The notes under the pieces were generated by a model. It did no database searches and was not told where the DNA came from. It worked only from the letters and a program-made list of their open reading frames with translations. Below are positions 56,885 to 63,325 of a DNA stretch of 64,000 nt, in pieces; the first letter of the stretch is position 1, and every line of letters starts with the position of its first letter. This DNA is from Kibdelosporangium sp. MJ126-NF4. GTDB lineage: Bacteria; Actinomycetota; Actinomycetes; Mycobacteriales; Pseudonocardiaceae. The stretch lies in contig NZ_CDME01000002.1 of NCBI RefSeq assembly GCF_000826545.1, positions 1,931,187-1,995,186 on the forward strand, read 5' to 3'. Position numbers and translations under genes: made by a program.

Positions 56885-58660
56885 ATGGGTCGACACCGCG
56901 CGCTGGACAACGTCCGGCGCGGCGTCCCCAGGTGGCCACTCACTGTGCTCGGTGTCGTCGCGCTGCTCGCGCTCGCGTGGCTCGGCTGGCGGTGGGTGGA
57001 CGACCAACTCGACCATCGAGCCGCCTCCCAGTCCAAGTCGTGTCCGGAAGGCGACTCCGCGCTCCGCATCGCCGTCACTCCCAGCGCGGCCGGCGCCGTC
57101 GAGGAGGCCGCGAAGCGCTGGAACGCCCAGAAGACCGTGGTCAACGACCACTGCGTGCGCGTCGAGGTGTCCGTGCGCGAGGCGAGCCAGGTGTTCACCA
57201 GCCTGTCCGGCGAGTGGAACGAGCAGGCCATGGGCGGCAAGCCGCACGTGTGGCTGCCGGAATCGACCTACTGGGTCAACCGGCTGTCCGCGGCCGACGG
57301 CACGCTGATCGCCTCAGCACCGGAATCCGTCGCGACCAGCCCGGTCGTGCTCGCGGTGCCGTACGAGGCCGTCAAACCGCTTGAGAATAACGACTCCTTC
57401 ACGTTCGGCGACCTGGCAACGATGACCACCGCGCCGGACGCCTGGACCCGGTACGGCAAACCGGAGTGGGGCAAGTTCAGCCTCGCCATGCCCGATCCCA
57501 CGTCGAACACCGCGAGCGTGCTCGCCCTGCAGTGCGCGATCGCCGGGGTGAGCCCGCAACGGGCCGGGCCGGTGACTGTCGACACGCTGACGTTGCCCGC
57601 CGTCCAGCAGAACCTCGCGCAACTGGCCGCCGCCCGCCCGGCGAACGTGCCGACCACGACCGTCGACGCATTGATCGAACTCGGCAAGGTGGGCAAGGTG
57701 CAGGGCGCGCCGTTCAGCGCGGTGCCGGTCACCGAGGTGGATCTCTACCGGCGCAACCTCGGTCTCGACGGCAGACCGCCGGTCGGCAAGCCGCTCTACG
57801 AGGTGGCCGCGCGCGGCCCCAGCCCCGCGGCGGACTTCCCGTTCGTGGCGCTGTCCGGCGACCAGTCGCAGGTGCGCGCGGGACTGAAGTTCAGCGACTT
57901 CCTGCGGGAAACACCGCAGCAGCAGTTGTTCAACCGCATCGGCCTGCGCGCGGCGGGCGGCGCGGAGTACCCGCACGACGCGCCCGGAATCCGGTGGGAC
58001 AGCGCGACGACAAGCCTGGTTCCCGCCGACGCCACGACGACCCAACAGATCTCGGCCACGTGGGCCAACGCCGCCGACGGCGGCCAAGTGATCACGGTGC
58101 TGGTGGACGTCTCCCGGTCGATGCTCGCCGACGGCGGCGACGGCAAGTCCCGTGTCTCCTGGGTCAAACAGGCACTGCACGGGATGACCGACCGGATGGC
58201 GGCCGGATCGCTTGGCGTGTGGGAGTTCTCCCGAAGACTCGACGCCGACCGCCCGTACCGGCAGCTCGTGCCGACGAGTCCGGTCGCGGCCAACCGGCCC
58301 GCGCTGCACGCCGGGATCGACGCGCTGGCCCCGGCCACCGGCACCCACCTGTACACCAGTCTCGACGCGGTCCACCAGGCCGCGGTCAACTCCTACGCCG
58401 AGGGCAAACGCAACCGGATCGTCGTGATCACCGACGGCCCCAACGACGGCGGCATGACGTACTCGCAACTGCGGGACCGTTTGCGCGACAAGAACATCGC
58501 CAAGGGCAAGCTGCCGATCAGCTTCCTGTCCATCGGATCGGACCTCAACCGCCGCGAACTGACCGACCTGGCCAAGGCGACCGGCGGTTCGGTCTCGGTC
58601 CTCACCGACGCCCACGGCGTCGACGGCGCGCTGGGCCAGCTGTTGTCGACCGAGGGCTGA
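56885..58660 (+). CDS. Membrane-anchored substrate-binding / VWA fusion (paralogue)
   Basis: A 591-residue protein with one N-terminal membrane helix (WPLTVLGVVALLALAWLGWRWV), a binding-protein-like region (ALRIAVTPSAAGAVEEAAKRWN, HVWLPESTYWVNR, TSPVVLAVPYEAV) and a C-terminal VWA domain with the MIDAS motif DVSRS (in VITVLVDVSRSMLADGG) and ITDGPND. It matches the protein at 6372 in domain order and in the words WLPES and SPxVLAVP. It is monocistronic here. Partners and ligand are unknown. Confidence 0.8.
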   Translation: MGRHRALDNVRRGVPRWPLTVLGVVALLALAWLGWRWVDDQLDHRAASQSKSCPEGDSALRIAVTPSAAGAVEEAAKRWNAQKTVVNDHCVRVEVSVREASQVFTSLSGEWNEQAMGGKPHVWLPESTYWVNRLSAADGTLIASAPESVATSPVVLAVPYEAVKPLENNDSFTFGDLATMTTAPDAWTRYGKPEWGKFSLAMPDPTSNTASVLALQCAIAGVSPQRAGPVTVDTLTLPAVQQNLAQLAAARPANVPTTTVDALIELGKVGKVQGAPFSAVPVTEVDLYRRNLGLDGRPPVGKPLYEVAARGPSPAADFPFVALSGDQSQVRAGLKFSDFLRETPQQQLFNRIGLRAAGGAEYPHDAPGIRWDSATTSLVPADATTTQQISATWANAADGGQVITVLVDVSRSMLADGGDGKSRVSWVKQALHGMTDRMAAGSLGVWEFSRRLDADRPYRQLVPTSPVAANRPALHAGIDALAPATGTHLYTSLDAVHQAAVNSYAEGKRNRIVVITDGPNDGGMTYSQLRDRLRDKNIAKGKLPISFLSIGSDLNRRELTDLAKATGGSVSVLTDAHGVDGALGQLLSTEG

Positions 58661-61387: not shown

Positions 61388-61624
61388 TCACTTGTGGTTG
61401 TTGTTCGTCGTTCCCCGATCCCACAACAGGGTGGCCACGTCGAGTTCAGGCACTTCCCCGGCTGCCTGAACCGCGAACGTGAACATCTGTGCCGCGTCGG
61501 GGCCGTTGGTCCACACCACCCGGTACCGGCGGATCTGCCGGTCGTAGTACACCCGGACGTAGGTACCGGACTTGCTGGTCAGCAGGCTGGCCAGTCGCCG
61601 AGCACTGCGGGCGCGCTTGCTCAT
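61388..61624 (-). CDS. Small basic protein, unrecognised
   Basis: A 78-residue protein from ATG 61624 with AGAGGA seven bases upstream. The sequence is KRARSARRLASLLTSKSGTYVRVYYDRQIRRYRVVWTNGPDAAQMFTFAVQAAGEVPELDVATLLWDRG. A basic first half precedes a WxxxP beta-like stretch. It is divergent from the HTH-deformylase gene, 198 bases away, and may be controlled by it. No family is recognised. Confidence 0.55.
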   Translation of the reverse strand: MSKRARSARRLASLLTSKSGTYVRVYYDRQIRRYRVVWTNGPDAAQMFTFAVQAAGEVPELDVATLLWDRGTTNNNHK

Positions 61625-61822
61625 GACAAGTCCTCTGCCGGGCGACGGAGCGGGACTCGTGGTCTCCGAGGTGGCCGTTGTCGACGTGTTCTGCACGGTT
61701 TCAGCCCCTTCTGTGCTACATCTGAAACACGAGGACACCAGTGACCGGGTATGTCATGGAAGACTGAGAGCTACTCACGGCGCGCTCACGCGTACTCACG
61801 GTCAGCCGGTGCGGGAGGCAAC

Positions 61823-63325
61823 ATGGCGACCCAGGACGAGGACTCGCCTGCGCACCAAGACGTCTTTGTCGGCGAACTGCGCCGATGGCGTGAGGTGCGT
61901 GGGATGTCCCGGACCGCTGTGGCTGTGGCCATGGGCTACAGCCGTTCGTACGTTTCGAAAGTCGAGAGCGGCCACGAACGGCCGTCGCGCGAGTTCGCCA
62001 AGGCGGCCGACGACGCGCTGAACGCCGGTGGGGCGTTACGGCGTGCGTGGCGTGAGTACGAGACGCTTCGTCCGGTCGTGGTGCGGTCTACTCCAATCGA
62101 GCGGACACCGGAACCGTCGGCGCGCAGCCTTTTCGTAGAACATGACGACGCCGAACTCCGTTACGACGGGCGGAACTACCGCGCGATCATGCGGCGCAGG
62201 CTGGTCAACAACGGCAGTGATCCGATCACCCGATACATGATCCGGATCTCGGTCGACCGGTTCCCCGGCGACCCGGACCTGTCCAACCAGCTCTACCGCG
62301 ACCAGCCGCTGACGTGGGAGGAACTGGATCTGCAGGCCTGGTGTGGCGAGGACCGTTCCGAGCCGATGCGGTGGGTGGCGCAGCACGACCGCGACGCGTT
62401 CAAGGAGGTGTGGCTGCAGTTCGCCAACGCCAGCGGCCACTTCCCGCTCTACCCGGGGCAGAGCACGTGGATCGAGTACACCTACACCGTCCGCGATGAC
62501 AAGTGGGGCAACTGGTTTCAGCGCGCGGTGCGGCTGCCGACGTCGTTGTTGTCGGTGCGGCTGGACTTTCCCGAGCACCTCGACCCGGCGGTGTGGGGGC
62601 TGCACACGTCGATGACCGCGGAGTCGATGCCGTTCCGCACCGCGATCGACGAGCAGCGATCCGGCAACCGGCGGGTTTTCTCGTGGACGACGGAGGAACC
62701 GCCGCTGCACGCGCGGTACCGCCTCGAGTGGCACTTCCGCCGCAAGCCGTCGACCCAACCGGCGGAACCGGCCGAGAAGCCAAGCCAGGTCATGCGTTCG
62801 CTCGGTGTCGTGCAGTCCGACGACCCGATCCTGCACCGGTCGGCGAAACCGTTCCAACTGCCCGACGAGGCGGAAGACGCCAGACGGGTGATCGCGGAAC
62901 TCGTGTCAGCCGCCAAACGGGTCTCCGCCGCGCACACGTTCGGCAAGGGAATCGGCTTGGCCGCCAACCAGATCGGCATCGACCGGGCGGCCGCGATCGT
63001 CTTCCCGCCCGGCACCGACGACGTGATCATGTTGCTGAACGCCAGGATCATCGAGAACGGCGAGCGCTACGACGCGCAGTACGAGGGATGCCTGTCGTTC
63101 TTCGACGTGCGCGGCCTGGTGCCGCGGCCGCTGGTGCTCCAGGTCGAGCACCAGGACCTCAACGGAGCACGCAAGATCACGATCTTCGAACGCGGAGTCG
63201 CGCGCCTCGTCGCACACGAGATCGACCACCTGCACGGCAAGCTCTACACCGACCGGCTGCCACCCGGATCGGAGGCGATCCCGATCGAGCAGTACGGCGG
63301 CAGCGGCCTGAACTGGCAGTACTGA
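61823..63325 (+). CDS. XRE helix-turn-helix / peptide deformylase fusion
   Basis: A 500-residue protein from ATG 61823, preceded by GGGAGG. Residues 15-75 are a Cro/CI-type HTH (ELRRWREVRGMSRTAVAVAMGYSRSYVSKVESGHERPS). Residues 100-310 are a beta-rich central domain of no recognised family (YRAIMRRRLVNNGSDPITRYMIRISVDRFPGD, WIEYTYTVRDDKWGNWFQRAVRLP). Residues 325-475 are a peptide deformylase domain with all three motifs: GIGLAANQ (376-383), EGCLS (421-425) and HEIDHLHG (465-472), which give the metal ligands Cys423, His465 and His469 and catalytic Glu466. An enzyme that removes formyl groups joined to a DNA-binding module is unusual. It is unlikely to be the housekeeping Def. Confidence 0.85.
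   Translation: MATQDEDSPAHQDVFVGELRRWREVRGMSRTAVAVAMGYSRSYVSKVESGHERPSREFAKAADDALNAGGALRRAWREYETLRPVVVRSTPIERTPEPSARSLFVEHDDAELRYDGRNYRAIMRRRLVNNGSDPITRYMIRISVDRFPGDPDLSNQLYRDQPLTWEELDLQAWCGEDRSEPMRWVAQHDRDAFKEVWLQFANASGHFPLYPGQSTWIEYTYTVRDDKWGNWFQRAVRLPTSLLSVRLDFPEHLDPAVWGLHTSMTAESMPFRTAIDEQRSGNRRVFSWTTEEPPLHARYRLEWHFRRKPSTQPAEPAEKPSQVMRSLGVVQSDDPILHRSAKPFQLPDEAEDARRVIAELVSAAKRVSAAHTFGKGIGLAANQIGIDRAAAIVFPPGTDDVIMLLNARIIENGERYDAQYEGCLSFFDVRGLVPRPLVLQVEHQDLNGARKITIFERGVARLVAHEIDHLHGKLYTDRLPPGSEAIPIEQYGGSGLNWQY

Follow-up and report, generated by a model that had tools for sequence, protein, structure and literature searches.

An XRE-type DNA-binding domain, a putative M1-aminopeptidase-N-like domain and a peptide deformylase in one actinomycete protein: a possible self-regulated accessory deformylase

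A stretch of 64,000 nucleotides from Kibdelosporangium sp. MJ126-NF4 (contig NZ_CDME01000002.1, positions 1,931,187 to 1,995,186; hereafter the window, numbered from its first letter) carries a gene whose product joins an XRE-type helix-turn-helix (HTH) DNA-binding domain, a central domain called X here, and a peptide deformylase (PDF) domain. We refer to this gene as HTH-X-PDF. The features of the locus are the following.

61823..63325, + strand: HTH-X-PDF gene, 500 amino acids (aa)
61868..62050, + strand: XRE/HTH_31 DNA-binding domain, aa 16-76 (PF13560, E 2.4e-15)
62129..62740, + strand: central domain X, aa about 103-306, modelled as a beta sandwich of the M1-aminopeptidase-N / ribophorin-I-like type
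62807..63265, + strand: peptide deformylase domain, aa 329-481 (PF01327, E 2.5e-30), with Q383, C423, R430, H465, E466 and H469
61773..61799, + strand: candidate operator ACTCAC-N5-GCTCAC-N4-ACTCAC, 24-50 bp 5' of the start codon
61813..61818, + strand: likely ribosome-binding site GGGAGG, judged from sequence
61388..61624, - strand: divergent 78-aa gene, in near kin only (L001-L009 of 31 loci), with no Pfam family over its cut-off

The fusion of an HTH, a middle domain of about 200 residues and a deformylase, as put forward in the original prediction, was borne out, and both named domains exceed their Pfam cut-offs (57 bits against 27 for PF13560, or HTH_31, and 105.6 bits against 22.8 for PF01327). 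In a structure model of the window protein, the HTH helices fall within residues 14-81, and no Pfam match to Peptidase_M78 was found in this protein at E values up to 1. Since a fold search with the whole protein was filled by PDFs, X was folded alone. Its model resembles the N-terminal domain of M1 aminopeptidases and ribophorin I, at sequence identities of 4-12% among the matches listed, and the Pfam family of the M1 aminopeptidase N-terminal domain gave no match in the window protein at E up to 1. A viral structure library yielded five matches to X below 1e-3, all of them giant-virus proteins (one of the ITIH family, one M1-like and three uncharacterised). Compared with six close relatives, the ratio of nonsynonymous to synonymous substitution rates (dN/dS) of the main protein is 0.01-0.13 across all three domains.

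The sequences GIGLAANQ, EGCLSF and HEIDHLHG of the window protein agree with the updated PDF motifs (hydrophobic-G-hydrophobic-[A]A-x-Q, EGCLS-hydrophobic and HExxH-hydrophobic-x-G) given in the accessible part of PMC12690207. The claim that all metal and catalytic residues are present also held, as Q383, C423, H465, E466 and H469 are unvarying in 21/21 aligned members. The threshold of the housekeeping PDF equivalog TIGR00079 is not reached by the window protein (84 against 103.95 bits). In a tree of 62 rows, which omits the fragments L097 and L079 and drew a program warning on the long rows L099, L086, L193 and L183, a branch with support 100/99 separates the X-linked PDFs from L099 and from 19 further PDFs encoded in these genomes. 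The 44 X-linked rows were chosen by motifs II and III, which are constant by construction, and two positions outside that selection set them apart: the fourth residue after the motif-II cysteine is Phe in 44/44, against Pro in 19/19 other PDFs, and the seventh is Arg in 44/44, found by pattern in 1/19 of the others. This Arg, R430 in the window protein, is likewise kept in the 21 aligned members, and it would be Arg97 if, as we presume, the motif-II cysteine is Cys90. An R97Y change makes Def2 of Vibrio cholerae less sensitive to actinonin, according to the same part of PMC12690207, and Tyr was not seen at this position in the 21 aligned and 44 X-linked sequences. This lowers the likelihood of actinonin insensitivity of the known R97Y type, and actinonin resistance may instead arise through extra PDF dosage. 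Each of the 18 genomes tested carries 2-4 PDFs not linked to X (3-5 PDFs in total), nearly all of which score higher on PF01327. A second PDF of the X-linked clade directly follows the first at one locus (L026:1700-2278), and another is found at L069.

The three-part architecture recurs. A protein search returned 1878 matches at E <= 0.001 from 7996 candidates scored, and the deformylase and HTH families are both present in 117 of 120 homologues among the matches listed, whose database entries are mostly named peptide deformylase. One scan of GTDB contigs gave 31 loci, which is an undercount, as near-exact peptide words were required. With alignment A1, X was found in 4/396 genomes of a phylum sample, 64/298 of the order of Kibdelosporangium and 15/147 of the order of Streptomyces; with A3, in 23/394 of a class sample; and with A4, in 166/200 of the G633 family and 18/197 of the order of G751, most of the latter matches being common to the Streptomyces-order draw. 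These samples were drawn by rank and partly share genomes; the matches include fragments, and finding X does not imply a fused PDF. The G633 family, which includes the Stackebrandtia albiflava genome G010, is taken by us to be the Micromonosporaceae of GTDB.

Fused and split arrangements both occur. From 110 initial X matches, 88 were kept (at least 170 residues, no stop) and 22 dropped. With the window left out, the remaining 87 loci, a redundant set in which, for example, L036 and L088 are one gene, comprise 55 whose X frame also holds the PDF motifs, 22 followed by a PDF at most 2.5 kb downstream and 10 without one; L014, counted among the ten, is a fusion whose frame is broken. A text pattern for the HTH missed 26 of the 87, some of which carry the domain by Pfam (L018). 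At 14 Streptomycetaceae loci (start codons set by eye; the fragment L031, a fifteenth locus, left out) HTH-X and PDF are separate frames, overlapping in 13, by GTGA in nine and by 8 bases in four, and at L028 the PDF starts 11 bases past the stop. Streptomyces also has fused copies, such as the plasmid-borne H5-H8. Among 42 later loci, 15 of them already in the earlier sets, 33 are fused and have the HTH, two are fused with the HTH pattern failing, five have a separate PDF and two have none (a STAND-like protein and L220).

Divergent copies of X occur in STAND-like and trypsin-like proteins. Two large X proteins with weak STAND-type matches lie at L084 (6444-9326 and 11477-13897, - strand), one of them with an extra inositol-monophosphatase domain, at a locus that also has aconitase and PhyH genes. 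L086 (5811-7940, - strand) combines a trypsin-like domain, X and a PDF in a single protein. The L088-L092 loci have a divergent HTH-X gene, then a gene of 317-345 aa (an alpha/beta-hydrolase by Pfam, at L088) and a large convergent protein, with no PDF within 2.5 kb downstream of HTH-X.

For the gap at 61625-61822, where DNA binding had been proposed, the predicted operator is the triple repeat at 61773-61799, which spans 27 bases with spacings of 11 and 10. Pairs of VCTCAC at 10-, 11- or 17-bp spacing are found nowhere else in the 64-kb window. Among ten genomes of the Kibdelosporangium-to-Actinoalloteichus type (Pseudonocardiaceae-type), seven have the exact triplet once per genome, at the HTH-X-PDF gene. 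The remaining three carry a site with 1, 1 and 2 mismatches at this gene, ranking best, best and joint-best; a second gene copy in G001 has the triplet with 2 mismatches. Allowing up to 2 mismatches, the ten genomes gave 53 matches against 25 in a reversed control. In 7/7 Streptomycetaceae genomes, the related sequence ACTCACGGTTCATTCATGCTCAC (up to 3 mismatches) has a single match, which is at HTH-X, and the control gave 0. The motif CTCAC-N6-YTCA, picked after the sequences had been viewed, is present upstream at 9 loci of a dereplicated set of 35; 200 rounds of shuffling gave 0.035 on average and 1 at most. The G633 family has a different conserved upstream element (up to 3 mismatches, 39 matches; control, 15), whose best or joint-best match is at the gene in 9/9 genomes. 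Because the operator patterns were derived from these promoters, finding them there is built into the searches; what is informative is that a second strong site does not stand out. The exact triplet, found once per genome at the gene in seven of ten relatives, suggests that the gene controls mainly itself, and there may be weak further targets.

The original prediction had also proposed the divergent open reading frame at 61388 as a partner, which may hold in near kin and fails elsewhere. This 78-aa gene is present in 9 of the 31 loci, under the titles Kibdelosporangium, Actinocrispum, Allokutzneria, Actinosynnema and Rhodococcus, and was ruled out as a general partner on that count. The main proteins of the Actinosynnema- and Rhodococcus-titled loci are 95-97% identical, and L004, titled Rhodococcus rhodnii, has a Kibdelosporangium-like protein and neighbours and is perhaps a mislabelled record. 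The dN/dS of the 78-aa gene is 0.00-0.11 in seven close relatives and about 0.4 against Allokutzneria; judged from these ratios, it is under purifying selection in the window and related loci. A divergent glycosyltransferase operon is found at 10 of the 14 Streptomycetaceae loci (L017, L018, L020-L025, L027 and L028), where glycosyltransferase-type genes, a gene for a 234-aa protein and an AAA_33 kinase gene, named by Pfam on L018 only, diverge from the HTH-X/PDF pair; a relaxase-like gene lies farther out in seven of the ten. This operon was likewise rejected as a general partner, being absent from 12 viral loci, the only other group queried. Scans of selected loci for tRNAs and Rfam families gave nothing relevant to HTH-X-PDF. 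Elsewhere in the window, one protein (56885-58660, + strand) has both a solute-binding domain and a VWA domain.

Our preferred explanation, which we hold tentatively, is an autorepressed accessory deformylase whose X-PDF part would sense formyl-peptides, PDF inhibitors or the metal state, the nature of the signal being conjectural. The earlier idea of a regulator connected with deformylation finds support. The HTH would keep expression low by binding the direct repeats of its own promoter, and the X-PDF part would act as the sensing and output module. The ligand could be formylated peptide N-termini that accumulate once housekeeping PDF activity falls short, an actinonin-type natural PDF inhibitor or an altered active-site metal. 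Its binding at the PDF pocket or at X would relieve repression and yield more of the same competent PDF, and the fusion in one protein, or the gene overlap in Streptomyces, would keep switch and enzyme together. Sensing of formyl-peptides or of a PDF inhibitor is favoured because the PDF pocket and its arginine are kept.

Several observations weigh against an autorepressed deformylase. That the protein is a repressor rather than an activator is an assumption. In Streptomycetaceae X is better conserved than the PDF (63-66% against 50.5-56%), and against Allokutzneria dN/dS rises from 0.10-0.11 in the HTH to 0.29 in X and 0.45-0.47 in the PDF. One of the 55 fused loci, L034, is without EGC[LMI]S by pattern. 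In 10/10 genomes picked because their X frame is short (338-356 aa), the PDFs found are all distant, at 28-38% identity to that of the window, and two loci inspected, L257 and L258, have an HTH-X gene without a PDF and retain the neighbours of their family. As for the operator, 42 triplet matches lie away from the gene, three of them with 1 mismatch (G004, G005 and G006), and the CTCAC motif is missing upstream in 26 of the 35 dereplicated loci.

An unlikely reading, which is nevertheless the main rival because X outlasts the PDF and is shared with other kinds of protein, is a peptide-sensing regulator in which X, with a build like that of the M1 aminopeptidase N-terminal domain, is the real sensor, of a peptide or another ligand, and the PDF only trims or clears that ligand and is dispensable.

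Quite unlikely, in our view, is an iron, redox or nitric oxide (NO) switch in which the metal centre of the PDF reports the iron or oxidant state to the HTH. The iron of PDFs is sensitive to oxidation, and in one family the gene lies between FhuF-like and flavohaemoglobin-like genes, names assigned by eye, both of which are present in 16/16 long loci (66 and 62, respectively, of all loci then collected, many of them redundant). In that family's loci L248-L263, a palindrome like TAAGGCTAGCCTAACCA, which we take to resemble the IdeR/DtxR iron box, stands in the gap upstream of HTH-X. However, it sits on the FhuF side of this gap, and neither neighbour was found in the examined stretches of the 31 GTDB-scan loci or the 12 viral contigs; both were dismissed as general partners, being confined to the loci of one family.

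It is improbable that the protein serves mobile elements as a repressor or is their cargo, with a role in defence or competition. X and a PDF are found together on 12 IMG/VR contigs (L165-L176, virus- or phage-plasmid-like). Among three of these tested with profiles, a large terminase lies at most 10 kb from the gene on L165, and DnaB, FtsK-like and DnaC-like genes occur on L166 or L168; at L165 the HTH-X-PDF gene is the lone forward gene amid reverse arrays. The protein also matches 41 plasmid records, 31 from Streptomyces and 5 from Staphylococcus (the latter probably plain PDFs), and 13 of the 41 cover at least 80% of the query; the Streptomycetaceae loci with the glycosyltransferase operon and the relaxase-like gene point the same way. 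On the other side, X has no match in 50,697 INPHARED phage records, and its presence in 166/200 genomes of the G633 family, with common neighbours in 16 long loci, argues for a resident gene there. A phage immunity repressor would have operators at several promoters of its element; over stretches of up to 10 kb per side, repeat pairs occur in 3 of the 12 viral loci, solely in the promoter region of the gene itself, and in 9 of 12 there are none, which is a weak argument. A known defence family was rejected, as PADLOC matches were confined to the HTH part (best HTH_VI, E 3.6e-6). Iron or redox sensing and a mobile-element role are the weaker readings.

Equally doubtful is a bacterial intracellular receptor for N-formyl-peptides, in which X would bind peptide N-termini, the PDF would read or erase the formyl mark and transcription would respond. 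X would then be a binder of peptide N-termini that transcription factors share with STAND-like and trypsin-like proteins, and cells would sense the state of translation starts, or a PDF inhibitor. We give least credence to a catalytically idle PDF relic in an ordinary XRE regulator. The PDF can be missing (as in the ten short-X-frame genomes), departs in its motif II region from other PDFs (F for P) and, in the comparison with Allokutzneria, changes more rapidly than the other two domains. On the other side, its active-site residues are kept throughout the aligned members, and its dN/dS is 0.06-0.13 when compared with six close relatives.

Deformylase is essential to translation and serves as a drug target, and actinomycetes are a group that produces PDF inhibitors such as actinonin. 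A deformylase inside a transcription factor, if true, would link the processing of protein N-termini directly to gene control, and a self-regulated deformylase could account for one class of extra actinomycete PDF genes; this hypothesis can be tested at the candidate operator and with the Streptomyces gene pair. A protein with a DNA-binding domain, an M1-N-like domain and a deformylase was not found described in the literature searched, mostly non-subscription papers. The words "deformylase" and "XRE" are absent from the main text of PMC7159879 and PMC8195603, and PMC13118837 and PMC8467076, in their accessible parts, are unrelated to this architecture.

Both extra PDFs and enzyme-regulator fusions are already known kinds. 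XRE repressors are paired with a metallopeptidase in ImmR/ImmA and DdrO/IrrE, which, as here, bring together an XRE domain and an HExxH hydrolase; their enzyme is a Peptidase_M78, whereas here it is a PDF, with X in between. BirA and PutA have a DNA-binding domain fused to an enzyme fold, and so does MocR in the accessible part of PMC4944035; a deformylase example of such enzyme-like regulators was not found in the literature searched. The M1 aminopeptidase N-terminal domain and ribophorin I resemble the model of X in fold, at the low identities given above. The only fusion mentioned in the accessible part of PMC12690207 is def-fmt in Exiguobacterium, and "helix-turn-helix" and "HTH" are absent from its main text. 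The accessory PDFs described there (Def2 of V. cholerae and integron or plasmid PDFs) are, like the present one, extra to the housekeeping copies, keep the motifs and are present on mobile DNA; Def2 differs in its R97Y signature, whereas HTH-X-PDF is without it and has a DNA-binding part. LydA, a PDF borne by a gene cluster, makes Rhodococcus fascians immune to its own PDF inhibitor (PMC12130866, accessible part); it is an extra actinomycete PDF, as here, but lies in a biosynthetic cluster, and that part of the source mentions no DNA-binding part comparable to the one that HTH-X-PDF carries.
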